Below are positions 1,615-29,964 of a stretch of DNA of 29,964 nucleotides, piece by piece. Position 1 is the stretch's first letter. Every line of letters starts with the position of its first letter. A program made the position numbers and the translations under genes. Source of the DNA: Baffinella frigidus (Eukaryota > Cryptophyceae > Cryptomonadales > Baffinellaceae); contig MU646595.1 in assembly GCA_026770585.1 (NCBI GenBank), positions 232,613 to 262,576 of the forward strand, in the 5' to 3' direction. The notes beneath the pieces are model-generated. The model worked only from the letters and a program-made list of their open reading frames with translations. It searched no databases and was not told where the DNA came from.

Positions 1615-2391
1615 CACGCGCCTGCATGCGCTTCCCCCTCCGCTGCTCCTTGCTTTCCAGAGCCTCATCCTGCTCCGCCCGCCCTTCCTGCTCTTTCACA
1701 GTCTGCTGATCCTCGGCGATCCTTTTCGTCTCCCGCACCAGCCGCCGCACCTGCTCGACCACAGCGCGGCTCAACACAACGTTCGGAGGAGAGTCCGATT
1801 TCCGAGTCCGATTTCCGAGATGATGGCGACTCTAATATGGTCATGGACTGAAAATGGGGTAGTTAGGCCTACGGCATTGCCTGGGACCTCCTACTGTAGG
1901 CCAAAATCCTAGGACTTTTTGGTCATAGGAGCCCTACGGCCTTCGGTAGGCAATTCCGTAGGCCCAACTACCCCCTTTTAGTCCATTACTCTATGAACCT
2001 GCTTGCCGCTAACGCCGTTGAGCAGCTTGATGCTCGCCTCGGCATCCGACAGATCTACCCTGCCTCACGCCCTACTCTGCCTCGGCTATCCTGCCTCAGC
2101 TATCCTGCCTCATGCCCTACACACCGTTCGGATGAGAGTCCGATTTCCGAGATGGCGGCGACTCACCTGCTTGCCACCGACGCCGTTGAGCAGCTTGATG
2201 CTCGCCTCGGCATCCGACAGATCCGCAGCACCTTTATCGTCATCCGTGTTCAGCGACGCCTCGAGCGCGGTTGCGCTCGCCGCATCTCGTTTGGCGGCAG
2301 CTGAATCTGCCGAGGCCTCTGACTCCAGGGCTTTCTCGGACATAGCCGCCGCTCCTGCCCGCGGCACTGCCACACAGCCCACGAACCTCAT
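1615..2391 (-). CDS. Coiled-coil protein, unrecognised (5' two exons)
   Basis: I do not recognise this gene. Exon 1 is 2391-2167: 75 codons from the ATG at 2391, starting MRFVGCVAVP and rich in Ala, Ser, Asp and Glu, ending LLNGVGGKQ at a strong donor (CAG|GTGAGT). Exon 2 starts at 1750 (GAGCAG|GTGCGG), keeps phase 0, and encodes a strongly charged helix (RRLVRETKRIAED, then many Q/E/K/R) typical of a coiled coil. Its 3' donor is uncertain: GT at 1614, or GC after 1624. Further exons must lie below 1600 or outside the window. The intron holds a MITE (1842-1986) and a copy of the exon 1 end (1993-2054). It is divergent from the inositol phosphate kinase gene, with 416 bp between start codons. 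The two-exon structure is inferred from phase and splice signals, not from homology. Confidence 0.5.
1842..1986. mobile_element. MITE-like element, GGGGTAGTTAGGCC family
   Basis: Left end ATGGACTGAAAATGGGGTAG followed by TTAGGCCTACGG; right end the inverse (CCGTAGGCCCAACTACCCCC, then TTTTAGTCCAT). The terminal repeats are about 35 bp and the element about 145 bp. It lies inside the intron of the minus-strand coiled-coil gene. A second, end-truncated copy is at 24240-24346. Confidence 0.75.
1993..2054 (-). repeat. Decayed copy of the exon 1 end (coiled-coil gene)
   Basis: Minus strand 2054-1993 repeats the exon 1 end at 2223-2167 (GATCTGTCGGATGCCGAGGC ... GGCAAGCAG) with few changes. The real donor GTGAGT is GTTCAT here. 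It lies downstream of the real donor. A further copy of the intron start (ATCTCGGAAATCGGACTC) lies at about 1798-1826 as well as at about 2135-2155. Confidence 0.8.
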
Positions 2392-2807
2392 CAGAAGAAG
2401 TCATCAAAATGAGAGAAATATGGTAGGAAAAGGAGGGTGTGGTGTGAGGAAATCATGGACGAGGGACGGAGATATACGTTCGGCGACTGAGAGGAGCAAC
2501 AGGATGACGATAGGGAGCACCCCCGTGCCTCCCCGTGATCGCCAAAGCCAAGCCATTTTGCGAGGGTGATGACGTCAAGACCTCTTGCTCCAGCCTCGAT
2601 TTTCAATTTGCTCCACTTCAGAAAAATAGATCAAATCGAGTCTGGAACTGCAGCCGTTTCCCTGACATAGTCTTCGAATTCCGCTCTCGAAAAGGCAACA
2701 ACTTAAGATTCCTCTACTTTTAAAAGATGAGGGGACCATCACGTTCCCCTTATCCGGCTGTCTAGTCATCCAGTCATCCGGGGGAGGTTGTCCGGTTCCT
2801 TACCGCG
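2392..2807. promoter_or_regulatory. Divergent intergenic region (coiled-coil gene / IPK)
   Basis: 416 bp between two outward-facing start codons, so both promoters should lie here if these are the true starts. I see no TATA box or clear motif. There is a pyrimidine-rich stretch and no repeat element. Confidence 0.4.
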
Positions 2808-5800
2808 ATGCCGGAGTTCGCCAAATTTGACGACGGATTTGCACTCGGTGGGCACGATGGCGGTGTGATCGCCGATGGCGAGTATGTCTTAAAGCTGTGG
2901 CAGCCCGGCACGAATGGTGAAACCGAGGTGCAGCCCATCGTGATCTCCCCTCTGATCTGAGGCTGCCAAGCTCGCTGGTGCTCGAACACGCGATTCCACA
3001 CGTTTCCCCTGCCGTGTGTCTTTCCCGCCCACCGCGCAACACCATTAGGCGCGCGCAGCTGGCGCGAAGGGTGTGCCTCCCGGGAAATACGGCCCATCCG
3101 AGAATCAGGATTGCCGGACTCTTGACGGTGGGGCTCGGCAGGCGGCATTCCTGCAGAGCGTCGGGGACCATCCTGTCATGTCGCGATTCGCTGTCAAGTA
3201 CCATGGGGTCCGCGAGGTGCCCCTCTCAACATCCGGAACATTGCTCGGAGATGTAAATTTACGACGCTGGACCACCAAAAACCATTGTTTTGTTTTCAAG
3301 AGACCCTGCCCAGCTTCTCGTTCCACCCGAACTCAGAGGATACGTGTTCTTGAGGGTGCGGATACATCCGATGCGCCCGTCCCATCGCATGTCCGTGTTG
3401 CTCTCTGTTGACGCCGCACGCAAGCAAGAAGAAAAAGTGAGGAATAATTGGTTGTGCGCGGCAGGTTGCGGGGGAGGGGGACGCCGCGCCGTCCAAGTGG
3501 ATCATGATGGAGAACCTTCTCTTCGGGATGGAGCGCCCCGTGTCGATGGATCTCAAGGTGCGGCCCGCCCGCCACCAGGCTGCCGGAGTTGGACCCGCAC
3601 CCGAGAATTCGAGCCTTTGGCAGGAATTGGCGCCCCCGAGCTTGCACTCCCGCCTTTGAGCCACAGAGGGAAGTTTGGCGCGAAGACGGAAATGTCGCCC
3701 GGCTTTGGCGGATCAACGGCGGGGCTGCAAGAGGGGCGCTTGTGCAGCGGCTTCCCTGACAAATGGAACACCCGAGGCAAGCCTGAGGTGATTTGATAGG
3801 CGCAACTGTAGATACGCCGATCAGGCGTATCCATAGTCAACTAACATGGCGTGAATCGCGTAGGGCGTTGAAATTCGGAGAAGGCATGGGCCAGGGGTTT
3901 GAGGTTGTGGCGCGGCACTCGGGTTGTTGCCAAGGTCGGGGGGGGTCCTCGACAGCCCCTGCCAAAAAGGAGGTCGTAAAAGCCTTGTACGGGTAACGGC
4001 CCTGTGCGAGGTACATTAGCTTCCGAGATTGTGCTCTGCCCTATATTGCCAAGTCGCCCAATGGTTGTGGCCTGGCTGTGTATGTGGCGAGCGAAATTCT
4101 GAACAGTCTTCTGAAACCCATCTGTCCAGACGTGCGAGGCTGACCACGCTATCAGCAGTATTCGTATCCACAGTTAACACATCCATTTTTTTTTAGGCGG
4201 ATCCACTTTTACCAATCCATGATCTGTTGTGCGCAGCAGGCGTATCCGCAGTTAACCAATCCTTTTTTTCCCAGGCGTATCCACAGTTGACTAATCGATG
4301 AGGTCTCGTGCGCAGATAGGGACGCGGACGTACGGGGACGAGGCCTCGGAGAAGAAGCGAAAGGATCAGGAGGACAAGGCCATGACCTCCACTCAGGTTT
4401 CCTGCGGGAAGAGACTTTTATTCAAGTTGTATGGTTTCGGAGACCGTGCTCCTCGAACGGCCCTGCCAAGATGGAAACTGTAAAATCCTTGTAAGGAGCA
4501 GGAGGACAAGGCCATGACTTCCACGCAGGTTCATGCGTGTAGTCCTCATTTCAACAGACTACATTAACTCAGGCAGAGCACCTTAGCTCTGCCTGATCCA
4601 TGGCCTCCACTCAGGTTGCCTTCCCTAGCCACAAGGAGGACTACGGACCTTTCATCGAAAGTCAACTTGCCCATGGGCAATTACTTATAAGGATTTTATA
4701 GTGCAGATTTGGTCACATTATACGCTAAATTTATCGTAGTTGAAACCTTCGTAGTCCACCGAGTGGAGGGAAAAGACTTTAATTGAAATTGTGAAGTCGG
4801 TCCATACACTTGATGCTTCCAGAGAGGGCTCGGACTAAGTTCGTCTCGGCAGATGACTGAATCAGTTCCTTTTTATCGCAGGTTGAATAGGAGAAATTAG
4901 TAAGGGCATAGTCAGTTGAATTAGGCTTCATAATTAAATGAAAACGCCAATTAGCGAACTGATTCAGTTATCTTTCGAGACGAAAGTGACTGCAAACGTC
5001 ACCTACCTTTGCCTGCGTTATCCAGCTCCCCTCAACCGATGAGACCGTAAGTCGATTCCTTTTTTTATGGTACAATTATGTAAACGTTGGCGTGAACACG
5101 AACTGTCAACCCGACTGATGCAGCTGTAGGCCCTCCCAACTCAACCGCCCCTACCGGGTTTATAGACATACACGCCGTGCTCGGCCTGCAGGGCTGTGTA
5201 TCCCTCAAGTGGCCAGAAGGCTCACACGCCCTACCGTAGGGCCCTAGGACCTTCCTTGGACCTCGCGTGGGTCTTTTAAGACCCCCTGGCCACTTAAGGG
5301 ATAGGATTTATGGGTTTATGGTTTAAGAGACCCTGCTTCTCGAACGCCTCCAAGCAGGAAGCCGTAAAAGCCTTGTACGGGTGTCGACCCTGTGCGAGGT
5401 ACATTAGCTTCCGAGATTATGCTCTGCCCTATATCGCAAGGTCACCCACCGATTGTGGCCTGGTTGTGTATGTGGCGAGCGATATTTTTAACAGCCTACC
5501 GCAATTCATCTTGTGTGATGCGTTGGGATTCGGAAAGGGCAGGTGTCAGGGGGTTGAGGTCGTGGCGCGGCTCGCGGGGTTTTGTCAGCATTTGTGGGTG
5601 TTCTCGAATGCCCCTGCCGAGAGGGAAGTCGTAAAAGCCTTGTACGGGTATCAGCCCTGTGCGAGGTGCATTAGCTTCCGATATTATGCTTTGCCCTATA
5701 TTGCGAGGTCACCCACCGGTTGTGGCCTGATTGTGTATGTGGCGAGCGAAATTCTGCGGTCCACTTGTCGCCATCAGTGCCTAGGGTGGCCAGGATTAGC

Positions 5801-6279: not shown

Positions 6280-6319
<40 letters not shown>

Positions 6320-9300
6320 TCTCTCTTTCTTTCTCTCTCTCTCTCTCTCTCGCTCTCTCTCTGCTGAAGACCTGAAGCTCCCGGACAGCCTTGGCCTGTC
6401 CAAGCACGGTTCTAAACCCTGAACTCTGAACCCTTCACCCTGAACCCTGAACCCTGCACCCTAAACCTTAACCCCTGAACCTTGAGCCCTGAACCCTAAA
6501 CCTGCGCCCTGAACCCTAAACCCTCAACCCTCAACCCTGAACTCTAAACCCTACGCGTCCCAAAGCGTACTCCAAAACGCCGAGTGAGTGCACTCGTGCG
6601 TTCTCACCCCCCCTGATCCGCCCACAACATGAACCCGTTCAGCGAGGGGTTTTCAGGCGCCCGGACCAAACGCGTTTTTGAGAGTGTGGTTTCAGGCGCC
6701 CGGTTGGTGAGGGTGTGGTGTGAATGTTGCTGGTAACGGACGAGGAGGAGGTTTCATAAGCCCGGTTCAAACGAGTAGTATTTCAAACGAGTTGGTGAGT
6801 GTGGTGTGAATAATGTGAATAATGTGGGCGACAGCGGACGAGGAGGATTTCGCTCGCCACATACATAGAAGAAGAGTTTACAGAACCCCTGTTCAAAACG
6901 AGTCGCTGAGCGTGTGGTCAACGAGGTCAATTACAAATAGACGATTTATTAATACATGGAGTGGTTGGCAGCGGACGAGGAGGAGATGCGAGTAGCGCTG
7001 CGGGCCTTCTTCGCCCCCCCAGAAGTGCTGGCCCAGGTCTGCCTCCCGCCCACCACCAGCCATCCGAAGAGGACCAAATCTGGCATGTGACTGGCCAGTT
7101 CCCGCCCGCAGGCGGTCGAATTCGACCGGAATGGCTCAAAAGCCCGCGTGTGACTGTAAGATAAATTCACGATGTGATCTTCTTTGGAGTGCAAGTGGCC
7201 ATTAAGTGGAATGCTGACGCGAATAGCTGCGTGATTTGGCCATGAAGCCGTGTGCTGACGGGAAGAGATCATGACGCTCCCTCAGTTGATCTGGGCTCCT
7301 CATTAAGTACATTCCGATGCTCTTTTTGCTGGATCGTTTGGACGGAGCCCTGATGTAAATGTAGTTAATGCGGACCCCACATTAACGGATGCAGAGCAAA
7401 CGAAGATCTGCTTGGACGACACGCAGCTGCGGTCGAGTAGTCCAGGTCCTGGTTCCGGCGTTGCAGTTTCGTCCAACATGGCGCACGCCGCCTGGCGTGT
7501 GGGAAAGGCATTCACGACTCAACGCTTCGCGTGAGGCGTTGAGATTCGTGGGGGGTCTAGTTTGTGGCGCGGCAGTCGGGTTTTTGTCAAGGTCGGCGGG
7601 GGTCCTCGAACACCCCTGCCAAAAAGGAGGTCGTAAAAGCCTTGTACTGGTATCGAACCTGTGCGAGGTACATTAGCTTCCGATATTATGCCTTGCCCTA
7701 TATTGCGAGGTCGCCCACTGGTTGTGGCCTGGCTGTGTATGTGGCAAGCGAAATTCTGCACCGTCTACCGAAATGCATCTTTCCGCAGATTGTGTGCACT
7801 GCCCAACCTCAATGGGACCGTGCCCACACGTTCTCTGTACTATTTATGCAAGAAAGTATATGTCAACCGCCAGGTGAACACAGATAGTCACATGTGGGCA
7901 TGCGATTATGCTCACGTCAAACGTGCTCTAGCCGTGTGCAAAGGTTGCGGGGCAGTTGCCGGAGATTTCATATGATAACGGTTTCCATTTAAAACCTTAG
8001 CAATCAATAAAAGATTCTTCACAAATGCTTCAATATAACTAAAAATGATCATGCTGTGCAGTAAATTTCATCACCCAGCCGTTTTCTATGAGATTCATGT
8101 CAAAGGCCCTGTCAAATGCTCATACCAAATGATTTGTGGCCGGGGTTTCAGGTGCGGAAGTTTGTGGACGAGATGGTCGCTGTGTTTGAGAAACAGGTCG
8201 CGCCCCTTCTCCCCAATGCACTTCCAAACACAACATTTCATCTAAGCAACCCGCCCCTCAGATCTCCCCAATGCACTGCCAACCAGAACGTTTCGTCTGA
8301 GTGAAATGCCCCTCAGAGACAGAGCCTTATGTCAATTGGGTGTTCTGGCAGCACCCTTTCTGGCAACTTACTGCCGAGGGTCAGCCAGGTGACTCAACGT
8401 AACATATCCTGGCTAGCAGTGCAAATGGCGCTTGGTGCTCTTTTGGTTCCTATTCGTACAGGGGGTCCTAGCCGCTAGAGTTGGGAGGTGCTCAGCGTCT
8501 GCGGTCCGAGTTTTGCGGCGGGACTAGGGTGATTTTTTTCTCAGATGGGGCGGGGTGGGTTCGGGTGGACGATGCTTCGTTGGGTTCGGATGGCGGCGAG
8601 TGACGTGACGTGATTCCACAGCATGAATTGGCGTTTCACGGTGAGTTGTGGCGACGGACTTCATCGGATTCAGATGGCGGCGAGTGACTTGCCGTGATTC
8701 CACAGGGTGAATTGGCGTTTTACGGTGGGTCGTGGCGACTGACTTCGTTGGGTTCGGATGGTGGAAAGTGACTTGGCGTGATTCCGCAGGAGGAATTGGC
8801 GTTTTACGGCTCGTCCCTTCTGTTTGCCTACGACACTGCTTCCAGGTGCAAGCTCTAGTACCCAGCAAAGGCCTAGACAGCGAGATTTGCTTCAGCAAAG
8901 CCCCACTCTCGTCAGGGGAAAGGGGTCAGAGGGGGGGACCTTAGCAGAGTACGGCTGAAGCCTGCGGACTTGAAAGCAAAAATTTACTGCACGTGCAGGG
9001 TCTTATTTGCAGATCTCACCGCGGGTTCCCGAGAAGGTTGAGATCTGGTCACGTGACGTGAATCGAGTGACGCGTTGAGATTCGGAGAGGGTGGGTGAGG
9101 GGGTTGAGGTCGTGGCGTGGCACACAGGTTCTTTTCAATGTCGGTGGGGGTCCTCGAGTGCCCCTGCCGAGAGGGAAGTCGTAAAAGCCTTGTACGGGTA
9201 TCAGCCCTGTGCGAGGTACATTAGCTTCCGAGATAATGCTCTGCCCTATATCGCAAGGTCACCCACCGGTTGTGGCCTGGCTGTGTATGTGACGAGCGAA

Positions 9301-10047
9301 ATTCTGCACAGTCTACCGAAATTCATCTCCCCGCAGATTGTGTGTACTGCCCAACCCCAATGGACCCCCATCGATGTAGAATGCACACTGCATCGGCACC
9401 AGCGCCGCATCGAGGATGCGAATACTTACACTTCGCTCTTAGCCCCCCACCTGGTGTGGCGCGCGGGGCTAAGGTGGAACGATCTGCGCAGAGGAGAGTG
9501 ATTCCATCTCCACAAAAGTTTTAATTGAGCAAATCGTTTAGTAATTTCCGTTGCCCCTTGGTCCTGGGGACTACAGTTAGCGGGCCCGCGCGCGCGGATC
9601 CCGCATAGATTTGGTCCACTTCAGAGCGCGAGTGTGAATTTCTTCTTGGCCATACCCAAGGACACAAACGCTGCACGCTCGGCTGATCGATTTCGCGCAC
9701 GCGGTGTACGCCCCACGGGGGAAACACGGCAGAAGTGTCGGAAATTGGAGCCCTTTGCCGCCGGAATAATACGAATCTGTACCAGAATAAGACACGTTAA
9801 CACTTTTAGTGCGAATTGTTGCGTCAGAAATTCTCATGTATGACCTGGCGTGGCCCCCAGGGTACCAACGCTGCACGCTCGGCTGATCGATTTCGCGCAC
9901 GTGGTGTACGCCGCGCCTGAGAGGGGGCGCGATGAATCCTTTCTCACGGTATGGAACCTTAACCCCAACACCGTTTCTCGTTTTTCCTTGTATCAACCCC
10001 TCCAGCAGGCTGCTGATTCTCCTGCCACTCTTGCTCAACCCGAGTAG
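2808..10047 (+). CDS. Inositol polyphosphate kinase (IPK family), multi-exon
   Basis: The IPK family (IPMK/IP3K/IP6K type) phosphorylates soluble inositol phosphates with ATP. Exons with matching phases: 2808-2927 (ATG; GGHDGG, then EYVLKLW), 3142-3252 (AAFLQSVGDHPVMSRF, KYHGV), 3465-3557 (KWIMMENLL, PVSMDLK), 4316-4396 (IGTRTYGDEAS), 6124-6186 (RLYNGSGLHLFGNKY), 6972-7036 (DEEEMRVALRAFF), 8152-8196, 8790-8845 (FYGSSLLFAYD), 9861-9948 or on to 10047 (LIDFAHVVY). The family signatures are present: PxxxDxKxG split across the 3557/4316 junction, the SSLL strand, and the metal-binding DFAH. One short exon (length 1 modulo 3; expected LGFR-like) between 4397 and 6123 was not found. The end is ambiguous: either a GT donor at 9949 or read-through to the stop at 10047, which gives DESFLTVWNL, like the DENFL... 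end of plant IPK2. Substrate specificity cannot be assigned. The gene is about 7.2 kb with intron-rich, SINE-laden spacing. Confidence 0.88.
3800..4301. repeat. Dispersed short repeat GGCGTATCCACAGTTRACYAATC
   Basis: Copies at about 3818, 4157, 4230 and 4273 share GCGTATCCRYAGTYRACYAA. The last ends just upstream of the acceptor of the IPK exon at 4316. SINE copy A sits between the first and second copies, so the array may predate that insertion. Confidence 0.6.
3846..4131 (+). mobile_element. tRNA-derived SINE, copy A
   Basis: The head (GTGAATCGCGTAGGGCGTTGA, later GGTCCTCGACAGCCCC) resembles a class II tRNA with A-box and B-box positions. The ~170 bp body runs from GTCGTAAAAGCCTTGTACGG through CTCTGCCCTATATTGCCAAG to GCGAGCGAAATTCTG. 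The same head and body order recurs in the other copies. It lies in an IPK intron. Confidence 0.75.
4436..4495 (+). mobile_element. SINE fragment (middle segment only)
   Basis: CTCCTCGAACGGCCCTGCC, then GTAAAATCCTTGTAAGG, matches the B-box/body junction of the SINE family. It lies between the true exon end at 4396 and an exon-end copy at 4493-4528. Confidence 0.6.
4493..4614 (+). repeat. Two decayed copies of the IPK IGTRTYG exon 3' end
   Basis: 4493-4528 repeats the last 36 bases of the exon at 4361-4396 (AAGGAKCAGGAGGACAAGGC ... CAG|GTT) with four changes and keeps a CAG|GT donor. 4595-4614 is a shorter copy (CCATGGCCTCCACTCAG|GTT). Both lie downstream of the real donor. Confidence 0.85.
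4552..4590. repeat. Short palindrome AGGCAGAGC/GCTCTGCCT
   Basis: ACTCAGGCAGAGCACCTTAGCTCTGCCTGA forms a short hairpin. The arms match the ends of the TAGCTCTG MITE family, so this may be two fused ends left after internal deletion. Confidence 0.5.
4832..4990. mobile_element. MITE-like element with ~30 bp terminal inverted repeats
   Basis: Left AAGTTCGTCTCGGCAGATGA, then CTGAATCAGTTC; right the inverse GAACTGATTCAGTTATCTTTCGAGACGAA. About 159 bp, AT-rich centre, no coding capacity. Confidence 0.75.
5198..5304. mobile_element. MITE-like element, TATCCCTCAAGTGGC family, copy 1
   Basis: The left end GTATCCCTCAAGTGGCCAG is inverted at the right end as CTGGCCACTTAAGGGATA. The interior has CCCTACCGTAGGGCCCTAGGACC. 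A second copy is at 20542-20648. Confidence 0.75.
5330..5513 (+). mobile_element. tRNA-derived SINE, copy B (5'-truncated)
   Basis: It starts near the B-box-like CTTCTCGAACGCC and has the full body to CGCAATTCATCTTGTGTG. It is joined head-to-tail to copy C. Confidence 0.75.
5514..5759 (+). mobile_element. tRNA-derived SINE, copy C
   Basis: The head starts TGATGCGTTGGGATTCGG, the B-box-like sequence is GTTCTCGAATGCCCCTGCC, and the body ends at GCGAAATTCTG. The 3' tail seen in copies D and E is missing. Confidence 0.75.
5835..6123 (+). repeat. Imperfect acceptor-side repeats upstream of the IPK RLYNGSG exon
   Basis: Three related blocks share GGTGGTGGT, GGCAGGG or GGTAGGG, then TCGNTCGAGA and CGCTCCGA (about 5840, 5905 and 6035). 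They end next to the acceptor (GTGACAG|GC at 6123). This looks like tandem duplication of the sequence in front of the exon. Confidence 0.5.
6211..6361. repeat. (CT)n microsatellite
   Basis: About 150 bp of TCTC repeats with a few interruptions, starting about 25 bp downstream of the IPK donor at 6186. On the sense strand it is pyrimidine-rich. Long reading frames through it are artefacts. Confidence 0.95.
6409..6556 (-). repeat. Degenerate telomere-like array (CCCTGAA/CCCTAAA)
   Basis: C-rich heptamer variants (CCCTGAACCCTGAACCCTGC...) lie inside an IPK intron, with the G-rich strand on minus. Confidence 0.85.
6640..6968 (+). repeat. Acceptor-side tandem copies before the IPK DEEEMR exon
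   Basis: GGTAACGGACGAGGAGGAGG at 6732-6751 and GCGACAGCGGACGAGGAGGA at about 6828-6847 are copies of the acceptor and start of the real exon (GGCAGCGGACGAGGAGGAGA at 6967). The flanking blocks (CCCGGTTCAAACGAGT, GTGTGGTGTGAATAATG) are repeated too. The real exon is the last copy. Confidence 0.8.
7281..7397. mobile_element. TAGCTCTG-family MITE-like element, diverged copy
   Basis: CAGTTGATCTGGGCTCCTCA, then TACATTCCGATGC and a right part ATGTAAATGTAGTTAATG ... TTAACGGATGCAGAGC. This parallels the copy at 27760-27883 (CAGTCAATCTGGGCTCC ... TTAACTAATGCAGAGCTA). Confidence 0.65.
7512..7822 (+). mobile_element. tRNA-derived SINE, copy D
   Basis: The head begins CGTGAGGCGTTGAGATTCG, the B-box-like sequence is GGTCCTCGAACACCCCTGCC, the body is full length, and the 3' tail CAGATTGTGTGCACTGCCCA ends near CAATGG. 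It lies in the IPK intron between exons 7036 and 8152. Confidence 0.8.
8538..8789 (+). repeat. 84-bp tandem repeat of the IPK SSLL exon acceptor
   Basis: The acceptor and exon start occur three times at exactly 84-bp spacing: CACAG|CATGAATTGGCG at 8622, CACAG|GGTGAATTGGCG at 8706, and the real CGCAG|GAGGAATTGGCG at 8790. In the two extra copies the exon stops matching after TT(T/C)(T/C)ACGG and continues GTGAGT or GTGGGT, both donor-like. Reading from either extra copy hits an in-frame TGA before 8790, so only the third acceptor keeps the kinase frame. Confidence 0.9.
9058..9363 (+). mobile_element. tRNA-derived SINE, copy E
   Basis: Head GTGAATCGAGTGACGCGTTG, B-box-like GGTCCTCGAGTGCCCCTGCC, full body, and 3' tail CAGATTGTGTGTACTGCCCA. 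It lies in the IPK intron before the DFAH exon. Confidence 0.8.
9645..9730 (+). repeat. Second copy of the IPK DFAH exon (possible alternative exon)
   Basis: 9665-9708 repeats the exon at 9867-9910 almost exactly over the stretch encoding TLHARLIDFAH. Upstream is CCCAAG|GACACAA, an AG that would join in the same phase as the real exon (AG+G = Arg). The copy reads DFAHAVYAPRGKHG before a TAA at about 9766. It could be a decayed duplicate or an alternative exon. The downstream copy is preferred because it has CCCCCAG|G and continues to a D-E-S-F-L motif expected in this family. Confidence 0.75.
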
Positions 10048-10880: not shown

Positions 10881-10920
10881 CGGCGCCGCAGTTTCGTGCG
10901 CGGCATTCGTCCGACACGGC
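10881..10920 (+). repeat. Decayed copy of the phosphatase RHG exon start
   Basis: CGGCGCCGCAG|TTTCGTGCG followed by CGGCATTCGTCCGACACGG matches the acceptor and exon start at 11012-11050. The copy would read IRPTR in place of VRHG in this register, so the catalytic motif is lost. It lies upstream of the real exon. Confidence 0.85.
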
Positions 10921-11022
10921 GCGAGCCTCGGCAGCGCTGGTCACTCAACCATGGTCCATGGACGCATGTATCCAGCATTGCAGAGATGACAGTCTGACCT
11001 CGCTCCTCTCCCGGCGCCGCAG

Positions 11023-20358: not shown

Positions 20359-20389
<31 letters not shown>

Positions 20390-21664: not shown

Positions 21665-21703
<39 letters not shown>

Positions 21704-21710
21704 ACAACCA

Positions 21711-21742
<32 letters not shown>

Positions 21743-24700
21743 ACACACACACACACACACACATCACTACAGGGCTCTGATCAGAGGGCACGGGTTCGGA
21801 TGAGGAACCCGAGAATTGTTGAGCGAGAACATCTTGCAGTTGTTGGCGAGAAGCCGCAGGAAGATCAGCTCCTGATGAGAGGGTTGAGGGTTAGGTTTGA
21901 GAGTTGAGAGTTCAGAGTTCAGGTTGGGGGTTGAGGGTTCGGGTTGAGAAGCCGGAGAAAGATCAGCTCTGTTCAGCGGGAGGAAGACAGTTATGTTTTC
22001 TCCTGAAAGCGGAGAGATTCATGGGAATATCGTTGATATTAAGGACGGTTTTCGGGTGCGAATTTGAGAAGCCGGAGGAAGATTTTCTCCCGCAGAGAGG
22101 TGTGAAGTCAGAAAGGTTTTGAGAGGGCCCCAGAGATGCAGCGGGGCACACGATATCTCTCCCCCCCCCTCGCTCCCTCGCCCTCTTCCCCTCGACCTCT
22201 CCCTCCCCTCCAATATCCCTCGCCCTGTCTCCCTGCCCCTCGCCACCTCTCCCACTCGCCCTCTCTTCGGCCCCCTCTCTTCCCGTGGTGTCAAGGGGGG
22301 GGGGGGGCGCACCTTTTGCATCTTGGCCATATCATTGTCCAAGAGGTTGACATAGCAGAAAGCGTTCATGGACGTCGAATGCGCGTGCAGGTCCAGCACG
22401 AAATCCAGCGAGATCCCCGGATCGCTCCCCATCGACCTGCAACCACGAATGAGCCTAGGGTTGAGAAACCGAGTCTTTCCTAGTATTATGTCGCACGAAA
22501 CCGAGTCTTCCCAAATATTATATCGCCTCAGAATGAAGGAGATGTCGCTCGATTTTGTGCGGTATATAGGTCGCTCGATTTTGAGCTGCATGCAGGTCAA
22601 GCACGAAGTAGGGCGAGATCCCCGAATCGATCCCCATCGACCTACGATGCGGGTGTGTGCGTCAAAAAGAACGAACAATGAAGCGTGAAAACTTGACTGT
22701 ATTCTGTCATGCAAGTTGGAGTCCTAGTCCTGACGTGGGTCGGCCTCATGCCTATACAGGACATGGATAAATCTACCGGACAGTAGCGGGGCTCCAAATC
22801 AGGCCCGGGACAAATGCGCGCGCTGAGATATTGAATAGTGGAGCCATTGGAGTCATTGTAGTGCTGTGAGAGGGCATGCGGCATGCATTAATTTCACGTG
22901 GCCAACAGATGAGGAAACCGATCTAACCCGCTCGGGACAAATGCGCGCGGTGAGTGGGCACGACCTCAGCAGGTCTTTGACGTGGTAGTTCTCAGGGTCC
23001 AGGGTCTCGCTCGGCTCCGCCCACTGCCGTTTGGACAACCCTCGTTACGATATCCTAGGTCTGTCTTTCTGGTCTCACCAGTTTTGTGCGCCCGGGCTCT
23101 TTCCCACTGAAAAGTTGACGGATTTGTACCGCACATGTCAACTTGTTGATGGATTGACATTGTCAACTTGAAGAGAGTCGGTGAAATCGAGTGAGACAGA
23201 TCTAGAGGTCAGTTAACGTTGGGGCGGTAAAGATCCCGGGCTCGCCAAATTGGTAAGCTGAAATAGCCAGAGACACAGCTAGGAAAGAGCACTGCCGTGT
23301 CAAGGGACGCGGGGCTCAAAACCTGGCGGTTGAGATCCACGCCTGATGTGGAGCATCGGTAGTTCCCCAGGAAGACGCCATCAGGGTTTAGCATCGGCAC
23401 CACCACGAACGTCACCGCTTTTCGCAATGCCTTCGCTGCTGGATCCGGTCCTGCACCACGAGGTTGCGTCACTGAGTGGTTAAGTGAAGACGTTACTCAA
23501 CCAGTTGAGAAAGACTTTACTCAACCGGTTGAGTGAGACTTTACTCAACTGGCGACGGCAAACGAGGCGTATACTAAACCGGTACTCCCCCGAAAACACC
23601 ACTGAAGCGGCAGCGAGCAAAATTACAGAGCGCTGCATCACGGGCGGGCAAGATACCTATCAGAAAGTCGAGCAGACCATGGCACATATACGACGCCGGC
23701 GTCTCCCCCGGATGCACCCTCGCACTCACAAACACCACTCGCCGCGGCGCTTTCGGCCTCCCCCCTTTTCTCCCACCCGATTCCTCGGGGGGAAGTTTTC
23801 TCCCCCCCGATTCCTCCTCCTCTTTTTTCCCCCCTGATTCCTCCTCCACCTCCCCGGACCCAAGAGGTTCTCCAGCGGGTGTTTCGGCCCCCGGAGGTTT
23901 TGGGGGGGGGGGTTCGGAGGGGTGGGGTTGGAGGCGGTCGTTGAAATGGAGAAGGTCAGATCCTATGATCACGACATCCATCCTGGTTTAGGGTTAAGGA
24001 GTTAGGGTTTTCTGAACCCAAAATGTTGATAGGGGGAGGGGAGTACGCCACTCACTCCTGAAAATGAGGACACCGTTCATCCTGCGGAGGGGTATGTGTA
24101 TCCCGCTGGGATGATGGGGTAAGTAGTTTTAGCCCGACAGGATTCGGGGTGTCACTCGCTCCTCGAGAGGTTTGCAAAGTAAGCACGCCTCTCAGAGAGG
24201 CGTCGTGTCGCGAAACATGTTAATCGGGTAACTGCCGACCGGGTAGTTAGGCCTACGGTATTGCCTACGGTAGGACGTAGGGCTCTCAGGAACTATGTTT
24301 CGTAAGACGCTCCCCTACGCTGCTACGGCCTACTGTAGGCAATAGTGTGCCGATGTGTACGCAACCCGTGCACCTCCAGGGTCGCCACATTCTAGCTATG
24401 TTTGCGTCAGGTTGACTGATGGTGTTTTACTCCTAATGTTGATGGATGTGTACCGCACATCCGGGGAATCAACTTCCGGTCTCATCATTTTGAGCAGACC
24501 AGAGTTGCTCAACTTCCTAGGGGGTAAACCCTAAACCCTAAAAAAAAAAACCTAAATTCTGAACCCTGAAACTCTCAACTCTGAAGGGAGTAACACCCCA
24601 AACCTCAGCACAAAACCAGAACTCACAACTCTGAAAACATGTCCTCTCAACCCTGAAAGACCACGGTGCCCTAAACGCCAAACCGTGAAAACCCCTAAGC

Positions 24701-27700
24701 ACCAAACCGTGAACTCTCAACCCAGAAACTCTCAACCCTGAAGAGGGTGGCACCTGCGGTGCTGAACGGTGCGGCAGAGGAGGGTGCGGCGGAAGAAGGG
24801 GAGGTTGAGTCGTTGCATCGAGAGGAGGTAGCGCTGCAGCTGGGAGTATGTGTAGGGGTAGGAATACGCGAAGAAGTACGTGTCGTCCTGCCGAGGGGTT
24901 TGGGGTTCAGTGGTTTGGGTTCAGGAGGGTTGAGGACTTAGGAGGGTTCAGGGTTCAGGGGTTAAGGGTTAGGGGTTAGGGGTTGGGGGTGAGGGGGTCC
25001 GGGTTCGGGGTTAGGGGTTGGGGAGCAGGGTTTAGGGTTTAGGAGTTAGGGTTTAGGGTTCAGGGTGTAGGATCAAGGGTTTAGGGTCAAGGGTTTAGGG
25101 TTGAGGGTTGAGGGTTCAGGGTTTGGGGTTGAGGGTTGAGGGTTGAGGGAATAGGGTTTGGGGTATAGGGTATCGGGTTTGGGGTTTCGCGTGCAGGGTT
25201 GAGGGTTAAGGGTTTAGGGTTTGGAGTTTAGGGTTCAGGGTTTAGGGTTCCGGGTGAAGGGTTTAGGGTTTAGGGTTTGGGGTTTAGGGTATAGGGTATA
25301 GGGTACAGGGTTCAGGGTTTAGGGTTCAGGGTTTAGGGTTTCGGGTGTAGGGTTTAGGGTTAAGGGTTGAAGGTCGAGGGTTTAGGGTTGAGGGTTGAGG
25401 GAGGGTTTAGGGTTCAAGGTTTGGGGTTCAGGGTTTAGTGTGTGGGGTATTAAGGTGTAGGGACCTCGTTGTCGAACTCGAAGACGAACGAGAGAACATA
25501 GCGCATCTCGTGCCGCGGGCACCTGCGGGGGACGTGAAAGTGATCTATTTAGTGCGTTCCACTTAGTAGGGTCCACGTGTTGCCATAAGTGGCCAAGGTG
25601 GCGTCACCTCGCAGCTGAACCCCATCTTCCGAGGGGGGGGGGGGCGCTATCTGGGCGTGTTGGTATCAGTGAATTACTCTATCTAGGAGGGACGGCCGAC
25701 TATGCTTTTGTTAGTTGGTGCTGGTCAACAGAACCAGTTTTCGTCCCGAAATCGGGATATGCCACAACCCTCCGCAAGTTCGAAAACAAGGCCCCTAAAC
25801 CCTAAACCCTAAACTCTCAACCCTAAACCCTAAACCCTAAACCCTAAACCCTAAAAACAATTCATGAAAATACAATCCATCGAGCACCCCGCCAAATCGA
25901 TGAAAATACTTCGCGTGGAAGGGCTCTGGGAGGAGCAGATCGACGAAATCGTCGAGGACGGCTTCGCAAAACCTCAACCCTGAACCCTAACCCGTAAACC
26001 GCAAACCCTAAATCCTGGAACCTAACAACCTGAACCGCACACCGCAAACAATGAACCCCAAACCCCAACCCCTCTTAAACCCTAACCCTAGCCCCTGAGA
26101 GGGCGCATACTTGTAGTAGAAGGTGTTGCGCATCGGGATTCGCTGCCAGTGCGGCCGCGACGTAGACCGCACCAAGGGGGTCATCCCCTCCCGATACAGC
26201 GACCTGAAAAACACAGAATGATCAAGTTTAATGGACGCCCATAAAGTTAAGAAATTGTGGGTGTCACACAGCGGAATCCAGAACTGTGTTTACCACTCAA
26301 GACCAGTGTGTTCACCACTCAAGACGACCTGCACACCACAGCCGCGTCACCCCATGCCTCACCGGTTGCAGGTTGATTATGTCGGGTCGCCACTGAGGAA
26401 CCGTGTGGCGCCTGACCGATCAGGATTTACAAAGGAGAAGCGTGCGCCAGGTTTACAAAGGAGCAGCGTGCGCCAGGTTCCGGGAAATCCAGCCGCTCGT
26501 TATGGTTCAAATAGCTCGAGGTGCGCTTCTAGTGCGGACGCGATGTAGACCGCGCCAGGGGGGTCATGCCCTCCCGATACAGCGACCTGATAATGATGAA
26601 CTTCACACCAGAGAATGATGAAGTTTGTTGGATGCCCATAACATCACGAAATGATGGGTGTTCCACGAAATTATGGGTGTTACGGAGTGGTTTGCAGAGC
26701 CGCTTTCACCAGTGAAGACGCGTGTGGTGCATGACCGAGTAGGATTTCGGAAGTAGCGTTTCCAAAGTGGCCGCGGGGTTGATGCGCGAGGCACCAGGAT
26801 ATCGAGCCGCTGGTTCCGGTACAAAAAGCTTCGGGTTATTCACTGAATCCTCACGACTCGCCCTCTTGCAGTCAGGGCTCTGTGATCTAGCTCTGCCTCG
26901 GTCAATATGGGCGCCTCGTTGAATACATTTTGATCACGACTCCTTACACACGACACGATCCAGTACAAAGAGCATCTAAATGTATTTTAACGAGGGGCGC
27001 AGGTTAACTGCGGCAGAGCTAGGTGGTGTACTTGGTTTTGGAGAAGTCGGTAACGTTGAAAGCTAGTTGGTGCTGGATATTGGCCTTCACATTCGGAAGG
27101 TCGCATTATTTAGCCGTAATACATCAAAATCTGGTCTGGGGTCCCGGAATTATTTTTTTGCCAAAATACCCGTTCGGATGAGATCCTCCCGACCCGCCCT
27201 CTCACAGTCGGGACTCTGTCCACCAACCTTCACGTGCTGAGCAAATCGACGATTTTCGGTTTTCAATTCCAAGGCAAAATGGCTCCACGGACGCCAGAAT
27301 TCGGCGGCCTCCAGTGGAAAACGTGACCTCAAGTTCGCTGATGTGCTTAGGCTGTGAGGGTTGGTGGGTGGTGTACTTGGTTTTGGAGAAGTTGGTAACG
27401 TTGAAAGTCACGACCTGCCGTCGCCGCACGTTCTCCACTGAAAAGTAGAACCACACCCGATACCTGCCCCGCGGGAGCAGAGTAAGACTGTCTTTCACGA
27501 AAGATTGTCTGTCACGTCAGGCCAATCCGTGTAGATTGCGAATTCCCAGCTCTGTCTCGGTCGTTTTGGTCTCAACGATTTGGTGAAACCAGGCTCTTTT
27601 CCGCTCTAACTTGAACGATTGTTTACCGCACAACCAGCATATCCACATTAAGAATAGTCAGCAAGCCAACTGAGACAGAGCTAGCTAGAATTGTGGGTGC

Positions 27701-28363
27701 CTCTCGCAACGACAACAACTTGATGTCCCTCGCAACAGCGCGCCACGGGGCATAAATTATAGCTCTGACTCAGTCAATCTGGGCTCCGCATGAAACACAT
27801 TCAGATGCTCGGTATACTGGAGCGGGTGTACGGAGTGCTGATCTAAATGTATTGAGGAGCATAGATTAACTAATGCAGAGCTAGAAATAGCGAGGGCACG
27901 CACTTGGGGTTGTTGGTATCCGGGCGCAGCATGATGTCCCATTCGCTCTGGGGGTTGACCTCCTCGGTACTCCCAAGGTTCCCTGCTTGTGCACAACTCT
28001 TCAGCTCTTCTACAGCTGAATCTCAATGTTGAGGTCATAAAGGCACAGCGTTTTCAGAAAGCCAGCGTGCAGGCAGCGTGAAGTGCTGCGTTCTGGTCTC
28101 GACATACAAAAACAGGGAGACATGAGGGTAAACAATCAGGGCATGCCATGCTGTTTCCCGGTCCTGTGGGGTGCAGAGAAAGGGGGCCTGCCGCTCTCGA
28201 AGTCGCTGCGAAACACCAGCTCCCCCTTCGAAGAGGTTCTCGCCGGTTCTTCTGGCTCTGACGCGCTGGCTGCTGCGTGCGGGGAGCCTGCTGGCTCCGC
28301 CGCGCCAGCTTCCACTGGCTCCGCTGCGCCAGCTTCCGCTGGCTGCGAGGCGCCAGCTTCCAT
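20134..28363 (-). CDS. Cytosolic carboxypeptidase (M14, CCP/AGBL-like)
   Basis: CCP enzymes trim C-terminal or branch glutamates from tubulin and other proteins. Thirteen exons, all phases consistent: 28363-28192, 27982-27904, 27463-27377, 26203-26111, 25522-25465, 24887-24754, 23982-23657, 23450-23323, 23023-22965, 22436-22313, 21871-21809, 21148-21062, 20265-20134. Total 1542 bases, 513 residues. N-domain hallmarks: [43 protein letters not shown]. Catalytic domain: HPGE (His298, Glu301), PMLNPDGV (338-341), GNYRC and DLNRQW (353-360), DLHAHS (zinc His396), YTME (catalytic Glu470, last codon of exon 12). Nothing essential is missing. A Pro/Glu/Gly-rich low-complexity insert (about residues 225-285) precedes HPGE. 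The first donor appears to be GC (G|GCAGG). The ATG at 28363 is the first in frame; the open frame runs further upstream, so another 5' exon is possible. Presence suggests microtubules/axonemes with polyglutamylation. Confidence 0.93.
20270..20470 (+). repeat. Degenerate telomere-like array (TTGAGGG)
   Basis: TTGAGGG with TTGATGG, TCGAGGA and TTAGGGG variants fills the peptidase intron next to the acceptor at 20266, giving CCCTCAACC on the transcribed strand. Confidence 0.9.
20542..20648. mobile_element. MITE-like element, TATCCCTCAAGTGGC family, copy 2
   Basis: GTATCCCTTCAGTGGCTAG at the left, CGCCACTTGAGGGGTAGA at the right. It matches 5198-5304 including the CCCTACAGTAGAGCCCTAGG interior. 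It abuts the next element directly. Confidence 0.8.
20646..20766. mobile_element. MITE-like element, TACAGGGGTACCTCGCTC family, copy 2
   Basis: Left TAGAGGGGTACCTCGCACAT, then AAGA; right TTTCTTATTAGCGAGGTACC, then CCTGTA. Same structure as 14430-14550. Confidence 0.85.
21290..21620 (-). repeat. Copies of the peptidase exon 11 3' end
   Basis: The exon end (minus: AACTGCAAGATGTTCTCGCT, then CAACAATTCTCGG|GTTCC, at about 21842-21804) recurs at 21600-21555 (with TC deleted, so out of frame, donor GTGCC kept) and as a shorter form at about 21395-21370 (TCTCAACAATTATCGGGTGC). A linked block CTCTGATCAGAGGGCACGG recurs at about 21300, 21525 and 21777. All lie downstream of the real exon. Confidence 0.85.
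21655..21765. repeat. (CT)n/(CA)n microsatellite
   Basis: CTCT then about 90 bp of CACA repeats in the intron between peptidase exons 11 and 12. Confidence 0.95.
21877..22105 (-). repeat. Two copies of the peptidase exon 11 start plus telomere-like run
   Basis: The exon start (minus CATCAG|GAGCTGATCTTCCTGC, then GGCTTCTC) recurs as GAACAG|AGCTGATCTTTCT, then CCGGCTTCTC at 21984-21950, and as GAAAATCTTCCTCCGGCTTC at 22090-22068. Between the exon and the first copy are TTGAGGG/TTCAGAG telomere-like units (21879-21950). Both copies lie upstream of the real exon. Confidence 0.8.
22455..22650 (-). repeat. Copy of the peptidase DLHAHS exon start, plus small tandem copies
   Basis: 22650-22586 (minus) repeats the acceptor and exon start at 22445-22381: CGTAG|GTCGATGGGG, then ATCGATTCGGGGATCTCG... 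to CTGGACCTGCA-like TTGACCTGCATGC. It still encodes GIS..FVLDLHA with the zinc His, but diverges after that and has no donor. Next to it, GAAACCGAGTCTT(T)CC and GGTCGCTCGATTTTG are each locally duplicated. Confidence 0.85.
22798..22960 (-). repeat. Intron-start duplication after peptidase exon 9
   Basis: The stretch just inside the intron (minus CACCGCGCGCATTTGTCCCG, near 22950) recurs as CAGCGCGCGCATTTGTCCCG near 22820. A donor-side duplicate without exon sequence. Confidence 0.7.
23053..23204. mobile_element. TAGCTCTG-family MITE-like element
   Basis: CCTAGGTCTGTCTTTCTGGT, then CTCACCAG at the left; GAGTGAGACAGATCTAG at the right. GTTGACGGATTTGTACCGCA and TCAACTTG inside. It lies between peptidase exons 8 and 9. 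Confidence 0.75.
23485..23565. repeat. Short palindromic tandem repeat TTTACTCAACCGGTTGAG
   Basis: Three ~24-bp units, each self-complementary at CTCAACCRGTTGAG, just upstream of peptidase exon 8. Confidence 0.85.
23985..24020 (+). repeat. Telomere-like run at acceptor
   Basis: TGGTTTAGGGTTAAGGAGTT on plus gives CCCTAACTCCTTAACCCTAA, then ACCAG at the peptidase exon 7 acceptor on minus, so the array supplies the tract in front of that splice site. Confidence 0.85.
24240..24346. mobile_element. MITE-like element, GGGGTAGTTAGGCC family, truncated copy
   Basis: GGGTAGTTAGGCCTACGGTA, then TTGCCTACGGTAGG at the left; CTACGGCCTACTGTAGGCAA, then TAG at the right. The outermost ends seen at 1842-1986 are missing on the right. 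Confidence 0.65.
24391..24520. mobile_element. TAGCTCTG-family MITE-like element, diverged
   Basis: CTAGCTATGTTTGCGTCAGG at the left; ATGTTGATGGATGTGTACCG and CACATCCGGGGAATCAACTT inside, as in the family. Confidence 0.5.
24527..24742 (-). repeat. C-rich telomere-like array
   Basis: CCCTAAACCCTAAA then CTCTGAA/CTCTCAA/CCCTGAA variants reach to within about 10 bases of the donor of peptidase exon 6 (24753). Confidence 0.9.
24900..25460 (+). repeat. Long G-rich telomere-like array filling an intron
   Basis: TTTAGGG, TTCAGGG, TTGAGGG, TATAGGG and related units occupy nearly the whole 577-bp intron between peptidase exons 5 and 6. The intron is built almost entirely of one degenerate heptamer. 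Confidence 0.95.
25795..25857 (-). repeat. CCCTAAA array
   Basis: Nearly pure CCCTAAA units in the intron between peptidase exons 4 and 5. Confidence 0.95.
25975..26095 (-). repeat. Degenerate C-rich telomere-like array
   Basis: CCCTGAACCCTAACCCGTAA-type units end about 15 bases from the donor of peptidase exon 4 (26110). Confidence 0.85.
26435..26835 (-). repeat. Decayed copies of peptidase exon 4 start and flank
   Basis: 26585-26532 (minus) repeats the exon 4 acceptor and start: ATCAG|GTCGCTGTATCGGGA, encoding [18 protein letters not shown] and then TAG where the real exon has TGG (Trp). Farther upstream, AGCTATTTGAACCATAACGA, then GCGGCTGGAT (26517-26480) pairs with AGCTTTTTGTACCGGAACCA, then GCGGCTCGAT (26830-26795), a second duplicated block. 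GGATTTACAAAGGAG and GCGTGCGCCAGGTT are tandemly repeated at 26424-26480. All lie upstream of the real exon. Confidence 0.85.
26888..27022. mobile_element. TAGCTCTG-family MITE-like element (well preserved)
   Basis: TAGCTCTGCCTCGGTCAATA, then TGGGCGCCTCGTTGAATACATTTTGAT; right end TAAATGTATTTTAACGAGGG, then GCGCAGGTTAACTGCGGCAGAGCTA. Terminal repeats of about 40 bp, 135 bp in all. Confidence 0.85.
27026..27072 (-). repeat. Copy of peptidase exon 3 3' end
   Basis: Minus 27070-27027 reads CTTTCAACGTTACCGACTTC, then TCCAAAACCAA|GTACACC, against the real TTTCAACGTTACCAACTTCT, then CCAAAACCAA|GTACACC at 27411-27371. It encodes [10 protein letters not shown] and keeps the donor. It lies downstream of the real exon. 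Confidence 0.9.
27220..27367. mobile_element. MITE-like element, CCACCAACC family, copy 4
   Basis: TCCACCAACCTTCACG at the left and TGTGAGGGTTGGTGG at the right. It is the reverse-orientation partner of 549-690. It sits between the real exon 3 end and its duplicate. Confidence 0.7.
27548..27684. mobile_element. TAGCTCTG-family MITE-like element
   Basis: AGCTCTGTCTCGGTCGTTTT, then GGTCTCAACGA at the left; AACTGAGACAGAGCTAG at the right. Confidence 0.8.
27760..27883. mobile_element. TAGCTCTG-family MITE-like element
   Basis: TAGCTCTGACTCAGTCAATC, then TGGGCTCC...ACACATTCAGATGC at the left; GATCTAAATGTATTGAGGAG, then CATAGATTAACTAATGCAGAGCTA at the right. It ends about 20 bases from the donor of peptidase exon 2. 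Confidence 0.8.
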
Positions 28364-28629
28364 TCCGAAGAGTAGTTTTCTAGATTCTTGCGTGTCCTTT
28401 TGATCAGAGGACTCCGGCGGCAGAAATTGTTGGAAGAGGGGAAGTGACACCTACCCATGTGAGTGGGAGGGGTCCAATTTTAAATGTGTTCACCTGAAAG
28501 CGAGACCGGATTCTGGTCTCAAAGTTTTAAAATGGACTGTACCCGCTTTCGGACTTTTTCCGGGTATCAAAGACTACAGAGGACGAGCAGCTGGTTGAGG
28601 AGTTGTCCGCGACACCAAGCGACGACGCG
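28364..28629. promoter_or_regulatory. Divergent intergenic region with inverted repeat
   Basis: 266 bp between the CCP ATG (28363, minus) and the first in-frame ATG of the plus-strand gene (28630). It contains an imperfect inverted repeat: GGGTCCAATTTTAAA (28470) and TTTTAAAATGGACTGTACCC (about 28525), with a perfect inner hairpin GAGACCGGATTCTGGTCTC. This may be a shared promoter element or a small MITE-like insertion. The open frames of both genes enter this region, so 5' exon limits are uncertain. Confidence 0.45.
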
Positions 28630-29964
28630 ATGTATGGGCAGGGCGAGCAGCCGGAGCAGGAAGCGGGACAAACACCAGCAGGACGCGATGCTGATCCAGA
28701 GGAGCACGGCCGGGCACGCAACAGCTCAAACCCGAGCGTGGGCCTGTTCGATCTCATTTCGTTTGGGCTGGACTCGTTGATCAGTGTCCGCGGACCGTCG
28801 GGCGAGGCTGGCGAAGAGTACAGGCGGCGGCGGGCAGAGGCAGGGTTCCCTGTGCCCAAATTGTCGAGGGAACGAGATGATGGCATGCCTTCGCAAGAAG
28901 AGATCTACGCAGATTTGAAGAGCCAGAAGAAGATGGCGCTCGCGGCTATCTTGGACCTGCGGGAGGAGGACGTGGAACTGAAAACCGAGATGGCCAAGGT
29001 GCGCAGATCGCTTCCCTCCAGGCACGGGTCGGCTTGGGAGTCAGCTTGTAGGGTCGGCTATGGAGCCGGGTCAGCTTGGCGGCTGGGTCCTCAGCCGCAA
29101 ACTTTCCTCCCGTCCCTGCTCCCCATCTCGAAACGATCAATCGCAGCCCCTGGAGAGAGCTGCATCCGCCACGGCACCCGCCGAATTGCCACCAGCCCTC
29201 GGAGTGGGGGGAAATCGTCTTTTCGAGTGCCGTGATCTGTACCAGAGGTCGTCGGAATCCGACGGCCTTCAATAAAAATCCAGGGGATTGGAAAAGACGA
29301 TTTGCTCCAACTCCTGAACTCTGATGAATGGTGGTGCGTGGCAGGTGGAGGAGGAGATCGAGGATGTGAATCAGGGCATCGCTGTGGCGCGCGGAGAAAA
29401 GGAGTATTCGGTCACGCTCGAGCAGAAGCAGGTGCGGCTGCCCGAAAACGCGCGCGCCGCGCAAACCCATTGTTTCCTGATGTCTGCGATTGAAAGGCCC
29501 TTAGACCCCAGATACTAATCTAAACATACACCTCTGTTGCACGGATCTGACGCTTCCGCCTTTGAGTTTTTGTCTTGAGCACGGTTCGACAGCATGCAGC
29601 CCCTCACACACGGCGCCCTCCTCCACGAACCCCTCGACACAATTGAGGGGGTGCAAAGCATCCCTGGTCTAGCACTCGCCCAGGCAGGGCGGGACCTTCC
29701 TTTTGCAGGTCGCACAGATGCGCCTGGACATTCTAGCGACGAAAGATTAAGTCAATTTTGTGGTTGTCCTCATTTCGAGAAAACAAAGGTTTGCCTCGTT
29801 TCGAGGGGGGGGAATCCATCTATCTCGGCTCGACAGCATGCCGCCCCTGACACACGGCGCCTCCACGAACCACATTGGCAGGTCGCACAGCTGCGCCTGG
29901 ACATTCTAGAGAGGAAGAGTATCGCCGATGCAGTGGAGGCCGAAGCGGCCAAGTCTGACGCGTG
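28630..29964 (+). CDS. Coiled-coil protein, unrecognised (5' part, runs off window)
   Basis: I do not recognise the family. Exons: up to 28998 (first in-frame ATG 28630; the frame is open upstream to 28531), 29345-29431, and 29882 to the window end. The junctions are phase 0 (GCCAAG|GTGCGC, GGCAG|GTGGAG, AAGCAG|GTGCGG, GGCAG|GTCGCA). The N-terminal part is acidic/polar (GQGEQPEQEAGQ...), then comes a more hydrophobic segment (VGLFDLISFGLDSLIS), then a charged helix (QEEIYADLKSQKKMALAAIL) that continues through exons 2 and 3 (VEEEIEDVNQG, EQKQ, VAQLRLDILERKS) as a coiled coil. It is divergent from the carboxypeptidase. The 3' end lies outside. Confidence 0.6.
29188..29334. mobile_element. MITE-like element, CCACCAACC family, copy 5
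   Basis: CCACCAGCCCTCGGAGTGG at the left and ACTCTGATGAATGGTGG at the right. The interior GTCGGAATCCGACGG and GACGATTTGCTCC match 1359-1543. It fills most of the first intron of the coiled-coil gene and ends about 10 bases before the acceptor. Confidence 0.65.
29589..29750 (+). repeat. Decayed copy of coiled-coil exon 3 acceptor and start
   Basis: TTTTGCAG|GTCGCACAGATG, then CGCCTGGACATTCTAG (29701-29736) copies the real GGCAG|GTCGCACAGCTG, then CGCCTGGACATTCTAG at 29878-29910. The intron upstream is copied as well (GACAGCATGCAGCCCCTCAC at 29590 and GACAGCATGCCGCCCCTGAC at 29832). The copy would end in TAA (29748) 13 codons in. It lies upstream of the real exon. Confidence 0.85.

Follow-up and report, generated by a model that had tools for sequence, protein, structure and literature searches.

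Polarised half-exon copies in the introns of Baffinella frigidus and a tentative break-and-insert route of intron growth

Analysis of a 29,964-nucleotide stretch of the Baffinella frigidus genome (assembly GCA_026770585.1, contig MU646595.1, positions 232,613 to 262,576 of the forward strand; hereafter the window) demonstrated that its introns contain partial copies of the adjacent exon edges, each consisting of half an exon with one splice site. The copies are polarised, with exon starts repeated upstream of the exon in use and exon ends repeated downstream. They are present in unrelated genes, and in the clearest cases filler DNA lies flush between the two copies. These results tentatively suggest that introns lengthen by break-and-insert events that recur close to exon edges. 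The likeliest of the sources considered is the repair of staggered breaks at such places, with filler captured at the join, alongside true tandem duplication; this combination would cover both tandem-like and insertion-like pairs. The genome examined was this single one (382 Mb, 1364 contigs), with exons located without an annotation.

Exons outside the window were taken from strong Pfam hits to kinases, chaperonins, kinesins and dynein (172 listed). Forty loci (L009–L048), chosen before their repeats were examined, contain 93 of these 172 matches, and 92 of them served as exon hits, the other (L045 1614–1727) being itself a half-copy. Simple and heptamer repeats, which at a permissive setting make up about a quarter of the window and the 40 loci (67,752 of 274,998 bases), were masked, and telomere-like and dispersed segments were dropped. 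Copies up to 3 kb apart were counted as local pairs. This yielded 358 direct and 26 inverted pairs, those within one gene being not fully independent, and the identity of the direct pairs was about 74 to 97% (5th to 95th percentile). Outside the window, a partial local direct copy was found at 27 of the 92 exon hits, in 18 of the 40 loci. Of the 68 hits no longer than 180 nt, 26 had one.

The orientation of these copies was strongly one-sided. First-half copies lay upstream at 19 exons and downstream at 3, and last-half copies lay downstream at 18 exons and upstream at none, which gives 37 to 3 per exon (binomial p = 2e-8). Two of the exceptions are in L031, where by our reading the Pfam hit overruns the exon or enters low complexity, and one is in L045. 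One kinesin exon (L042 4087–5434) has four upstream and two downstream half-copies. The upstream ones end near ACATG and then run into AACCCT-like repeats, and the exon itself continues AACCAG, which suggests microhomology at the breakpoint. That such pairs are an assembly artefact, namely contig-end overlaps left unmerged, is hardly credible: the window does hold a 125-base run of N, but the identities given above, the many pairs that enclose dispersed elements and the polarity of the pairs with respect to exons all argue otherwise.

The sequence-only reading of the window had named 17 exon edges as partly copied into a neighbouring intron. Each edge was aligned with its flank on the named side, with same-length window segments aligned to that flank as the null; the peptidase exon numbers were matched to coordinates by inference. 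Fifteen edges scored above every null. The copy of the peptidase exon start at 21871 was good, with 2 of 188 nulls equally high, and that of the phosphatase exon 2 start was weak, with 10 of 188 equally high. The phosphatase pair 12575/12650 is part of a 25-bp tandem array. Exon starts 23023 and 21148, which had not been named, gave no copy on alignment. These alignments covered the named side alone and are thus no test of polarity, for which two-sided counts were used. A self-comparison of the whole window showed about 25 nearby direct pairs in complex sequence and no wrong-side copy at the named edges, as had been claimed, and the survey bore out the polarity beyond the window. Inverted matches separated by less than 1 kb numbered four in the window, all of them heptamer arrays or MITE-like elements (miniature inverted-repeat transposable elements). 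The proposal of a general process in unrelated genes likewise agreed with copies in kinases, kinesins, chaperonin, dynein and carboxypeptidase, and duplications that span a splice junction and leave a partial exon copy in the intron were supported. The generality did not extend to every exon: copies occurred at 27 of the 92 surveyed hits.

Polarity had also been taken as a sign that such duplications are tolerated, and this argument failed. When a 3' splice site is duplicated, the spare lies upstream because the remaining exon follows the second copy, and the mirror image holds at a 5' splice site; any junction-spanning tandem or target-site duplication leaves the spare on that side anyway. 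What the polarity indicates is local duplication in tandem or target-site form; by itself it is no proof of tolerance. Its use as a measure of selection was ruled out by this geometry, and dispersed copying, in which template switching reaches a random nearby place, was ruled out by the polarity.

The extent of the duplicated zones was assessed independently of annotation. Among coding pairs of at least 93% identity (n = 24), coding sequence ran on only at the outer side in 19 and only at the inner side in one; at 80% identity or more (n = 82) the counts were 53 and 5. A new intron would show coding sequence outside both copies and none between them; 0 of the 24 and 2 of the 82 pairs had this shape. 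Thirty-two pairs were annotated by hand, comprising 26 of the 32 listed coding pairs and six from known exons; items 12, 19, 20, 21, 24 and 26 were dropped as ambiguous, and item 4 was re-oriented. Across these pairs, identity was about 0.9 over 30 exon bases at the 5' junction and 25 at the 3' junction and fell near the null level by 15–25 bases into the intron, although the source list held coding-rated pairs alone and favours copies with a short intron part. No significant extension on the intron side was found in 22 of the 32, and 10 extended. The spare copy retained GT in 16 of 20 and AG in 12 of 12, partly by choice of pairs. Outside the window, 23 of 26 last-half copies ended no more than 12 nt from the end of the exon hit.

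Retained splice sites could mean that the copies function, or once functioned, as mutually exclusive alternative exons, and by eye the upstream DFAH copy at 9655 has an open frame. This explanation is very improbable, since each copy is missing half of the exon together with the splice site at that end. In addition, no whole-exon copy was found at 103 exons (the 92 hits and the 11 of the carboxypeptidase), where random placements predict about 3.6; the lack is weak evidence, as most duplicated zones are shorter than an exon.

What lies between the copies bears on how they arose. The 358 direct pairs form 154 independent clusters, of which 13 are contiguous and 141 spaced. Coding calls came from a codon model whose training set of 84 exons was drawn partly from these loci. 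By this measure, coding-like DNA was present in 8% of the 13 contiguous clusters versus 19% of random placements, in 68% of the 74 spaced clusters of at least 88% identity versus 34 ± 5%, and in 12% of inverted pairs versus 39%. Among the 32 young spaced pairs (at least 93% identity), the DNA between the copies resembled neither outer flank in 18 when simple repeats were masked. The gap consists of a 70-bp MITE core at L012 1177–1338 and L048 4441–4592, and mainly of a heptamer array at L012 710–895, L042 1699–1946 and L031 3886–4104. The filler is therefore heterogeneous, with MITE cores, heptamer arrays and other DNA, the heptamers on average not above background. Dispersed repeats made up 0.21 of the young gaps versus 0.11 of the loci.

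Several observations weigh against break-and-insert growth. Gap–flank homology, which tandem duplication predicts, was found in 14 of the 32 young pairs, and both window pairs in the test (1997/2165 and 27022/27367) were tandem-like. Masking left that test blind to 7 of the 18 negatives, in which at least 45% of the gap was masked, and simple repeats were not enriched (0.27 of young gaps versus 0.25 of the loci). Many gaps lack recognised filler. The SSLL copies in the window (84 bp × 2.7) are a true contiguous tandem duplication, and L042 2616–2981 is also a plain tandem repeat. All four annotated pairs of 100% identity run on into the intron, so the duplicated units may be longer than they appear, and the sharp edge is partly due to fast intron turnover; a sharp stop of similarity at the splice site was accordingly not taken at face value, given the 10 of 32 pairs that extend. 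Finally, exons carried a partial direct copy slightly more often (31 of 103, carboxypeptidase included) than randomly placed non-exon segments matched for length and locus (23.7 ± 3.3%; these may contain unannotated exons), and the process is therefore active in non-coding DNA too.

This last comparison also qualifies the claimed specificity to exon edges. A non-coding background exists, though young spaced pairs are enriched at coding DNA; the simplest test (31 of 103 versus 23.7%) gave no support for strong specificity, and the spaced-pair test (68% of 74 versus 34%) supported it. Slower decay of pairs with one constrained copy could, alone, double the odds. A binomial p of about 0.005 speaks against that account, though not decisively.

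Repeated without masking, against nulls matched for repeat content, the gap test again gave 18 of 32, with partly different membership; where simple repeat made up less than 30% of the gap, 10 of 19 resembled neither flank. At L012 1177 the gap–flank homology is due to a second MITE copy nearby. With counts on both sides, the young pairs are a mixture of tandem-like and insertion-like cases. Because the unmasked count stayed at 18 with some members changed and heptamers were not enriched, break-and-insert growth was given less weight and plain tandem duplication more. The latter, in which a duplication across the junction is followed by very fast divergence of its intron part and by later MITE or heptamer insertions between the copies, nevertheless appears rather unlikely as the whole explanation. 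It fits the true tandem units, the pairs with gap–flank homology, the 100%-identity pairs and, by eye, the similar intron parts between upstream copies in the kinesin array (L042 4087–5062). It also fits the carboxypeptidase exon 27463–27377, where similarity resumes past two different MITEs (27183–27219 versus 26847–26883). Against plain tandem duplication stand the 18 gaps unlike either flank, the low coding content of contiguous clusters and the size-dependent placement of MITEs described below. Thus the tandem duplication named by the sequence-only reading accounts for part of the pairs, as 14 of 32 young gaps resemble a flank; the other 18, and the scarcity of contiguous clusters (13 of 154), do not follow from it.

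The MITE in its full form has a 139-bp consensus with terminal inverted repeats starting CTAGCTCTG and occurs in dispersed copies; one pattern of its core has 256 exact matches in the genome. Ten of the 95 element rows tested in the examined loci lay flush between long direct repeats, compared with 106 of 1500 random positions. By size class, 7 of 13 core-sized rows (about 70 bp) and 0 of 22 full-length rows were flush (Fisher p = 0.0003). The repeats around six of the seven cores are 42–90 bp long, and the seventh (L065) is a tandem array containing the element. Flush cores adjoin Pfam exon hits in L034, L041 and L045 and lie in coding-like sequence of the same genes in L012 and L048 and of a random copy in L069. 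Of the remaining three flush rows, L085 appears coding by eye, and L051 and L057 are ambiguous. Full-length MITEs seem to transpose ordinarily, and core fragments seem to act as captured filler.

Long flush repeats around cores that start 2 to 11 nt past GT (L012, L041 and L048) would also be expected of a mobile element (the MITE core or one related to it) with a preference for splice junctions and with long target-site duplications of variable length, in the manner of introners or short interspersed nuclear elements (SINEs). This is improbable, because much of the DNA between copies is something else, full-length copies have no flush long repeats, and intron and element are not coextensive; in the cases read, the element was one part of the intron and never the whole.

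Under the break-and-insert reading, a staggered break near an exon edge, with two nicks tens of bases apart, would be joined to filler, which may come from a MITE, from a telomere-like heptamer array or from elsewhere. Filling of both overhangs would duplicate the 30–90 bp break zone on either side of the filler, and joining without filler would give a plain tandem duplication. If the zone spans a splice junction, one copy would still be attached to the remaining exon and stay in use, and the second, a half-exon with one splice site, would become intron; a duplicated exon start would leave it upstream and a duplicated exon end downstream. Recurrent events may then build arrays of half-exons. 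The staggered break, the repair pathway and the identity of the spliced copy are inferred. Patch-mediated repair of breaks in rice was reportedly described by Vaughn and Bennetzen in 2014.

It is more doubtful that exon–intron boundaries are hot spots for these events. In that case introns would grow outward from the splice junctions, perhaps owing to fragile telomere-like arrays that abut them, and half-exons would be tolerated because exon definition would ignore a lone splice site. This idea rests on the last-half copies that stop within 12 nt of the exon end and on the one-strand orientation of the telomere-like arrays. Along the coding strand of 41 gene spans whose orientation is known, telomere-like cores of six bases were C-rich in 1454 instances and G-rich in 192; 35 spans leaned to C, 3 to G, and 3 were even. 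The C-rich strand of (AACCCTA)n contains neither GT nor AG, and the G-rich strand contains both, and the bias may simply reflect selection against false splice sites, with a possible contribution from the adding process itself. Many heptamer variants beyond TTTAGGG occur in the window and the 40 loci.

The features of the window are listed in Table 1; exons of genes other than the carboxypeptidase were placed by eye. The carboxypeptidase had weak Pfam matches in the profile search of the window. Its named closest relatives are a protein of the cryptophyte Guillardia theta (57% identity) and one whose name begins Palp, read as Palpitomonas; by this one protein the genome is probably that of a cryptophyte. 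An Rfam scan of the window gave zero matches at the gathering score. A 265-bp dispersed repeat is present in six direct copies in the IPK–phosphatase region. The run of N (10401–10525) is an assembly gap or a withheld stretch. Elements with abundant palindromic sequence like CCTACGGTAGGC occur at 1857–1973 and 24241–24285 and at 14430–14550 and 20646–20766; they are probably other MITE families.

Table 1. Exons, half-exon copies and repeats in the window (window positions).
Feature	Position	Strand	Remark
Coiled-coil gene, used exon end and 5' splice site	2165..2223	-	95% identity to 1997-2055
Coiled-coil spare exon end and GT	1997..2055	-	transcriptionally downstream of used exon; MITE-like insert after GT (about 1840-1990, by eye), beyond which the intron-start copy picks up again at 1774-1832
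IPK-like exon end and 5' splice site	4361..4406	+	in use by eye
IPK-like spare copy, downstream	4493..4537	+	92% over 39 bp
SSLL exon 3' splice site and start, two upstream tandem copies	8575..8742	+	84-bp unit
SSLL exon in use, by eye (EELAFYGSSLLFAYDTAS)	8790..8845	+	start within third unit 8743-8826
DFAH exon start, upstream copy	9655..9712	+	91% to 9855-9912
DFAH exon start, probably the one in use	9855..9912	+	
RHG exon start and 3' splice site, upstream copy	10881..10924	+	89% to 11012-11055
Used histidine-phosphatase-like RHG exon (by eye), including a few intronic bases at either end	11012..11171	+	
RHG exon end and 5' splice site, downstream copy	11415..11451	+	97% over 33 bp to 11133-11165
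Start side of used TruA-type exon	16081..16149	-	
TruA exon start, three upstream copies	16283-16351, 16501-16569, 16600-16668	-	
TruA exon end, downstream copy	15851..15880	-	source 16021-16050
Cytosolic carboxypeptidase 6-like gene	21062..27947	-	11 exons, one open frame when spliced
Carboxypeptidase, first six exons	27947-27904, 27463-27377, 26203-26111, 25522-25465, 24887-24754, 23982-23657	-	
Carboxypeptidase, last five exons	23450-23323, 23023-22965, 22436-22313, 21871-21809, 21148-21062	-	
Exon 27463-27377 end and GT, downstream copy	27022..27062	-	98% to 27367-27407
MITE-like element between copies of exon 27463-27377 end	27220..27367	.	related to 548-690, inverted
Second MITE-like element	26886..27021	.	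begins where spare copy 27022..27062 ends; ends CTAGCTCTG.., by eye
Exon 26203-26111 start and 3' splice site, upstream copy	26516..26641	-	77%
Exon 22436-22313 start, upstream copy	22588..22643	-	86%
Exon 21871-21809 start, upstream copy	21946..21980	-	
Exon 21871-21809 end and 5' splice site, downstream copy	21521..21594	-	
Exon 21871-21809 end, further partial copy	21452-21492	-	
Coiled-coil exon start (29875-29916), upstream copy	29702..29743	+	90%
265-bp dispersed repeat copies	3894-4158, 5282-5546, 5549-5813, 7551-7815, 9099-9363, 11583-11847		

Intron lengthening is rarely visible because intron DNA decays fast, and here the exon provides a conserved ruler. Each half-copy records the place and manner of a DNA addition, and about three in ten exon hits have one. 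Intron growth, boundary bias and splicing tolerance thus become measurable within one genome. No description of half-exon copies at splice junctions across a genome was found in titles and abstract openings on intron gain, cryptophyte and Daphnia introns, partial exon duplication, patch repair, introners and telomeric repeats, a coverage that mostly excludes subscription journals and preprints.

Related processes are known from other systems. In Daphnia, new introns have been attributed to staggered breaks that leave direct repeats, with repeated events lengthening the introns (PMC4202315). The likeness lies in direct repeats that flank inserted DNA. The Daphnia repeats shared with the adjacent exon are 4–12 bp long and belong to new introns, whereas those of B. 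frigidus are tens of bases long, span existing junctions and leave half-exons. Fill-in of complementary 3' overhangs (down to 43 bp there) by CST and Pol alpha-primase also produces small tandem duplications, and the available part of that account makes no link to splice junctions (PMC8355091). In the tandem genomic duplication model (Rogers; Hellsten), a new intron arises from a duplicated exonic segment with AGGT (PMC4974935, PMC3443670). Exon sequence with splice sites is duplicated in both cases, but in B. frigidus the duplications add to introns already present, and 141 of the 154 clusters are spaced. The introners of Amoebophrya, in which the element is the intron and the direct repeats are 3–5 nt, similarly are short elements with inverted repeats near exon–intron boundaries (PMC7789003). 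In B. frigidus, by contrast, several kinds of DNA lie between the copies, the element being one, and the repeats are much longer.

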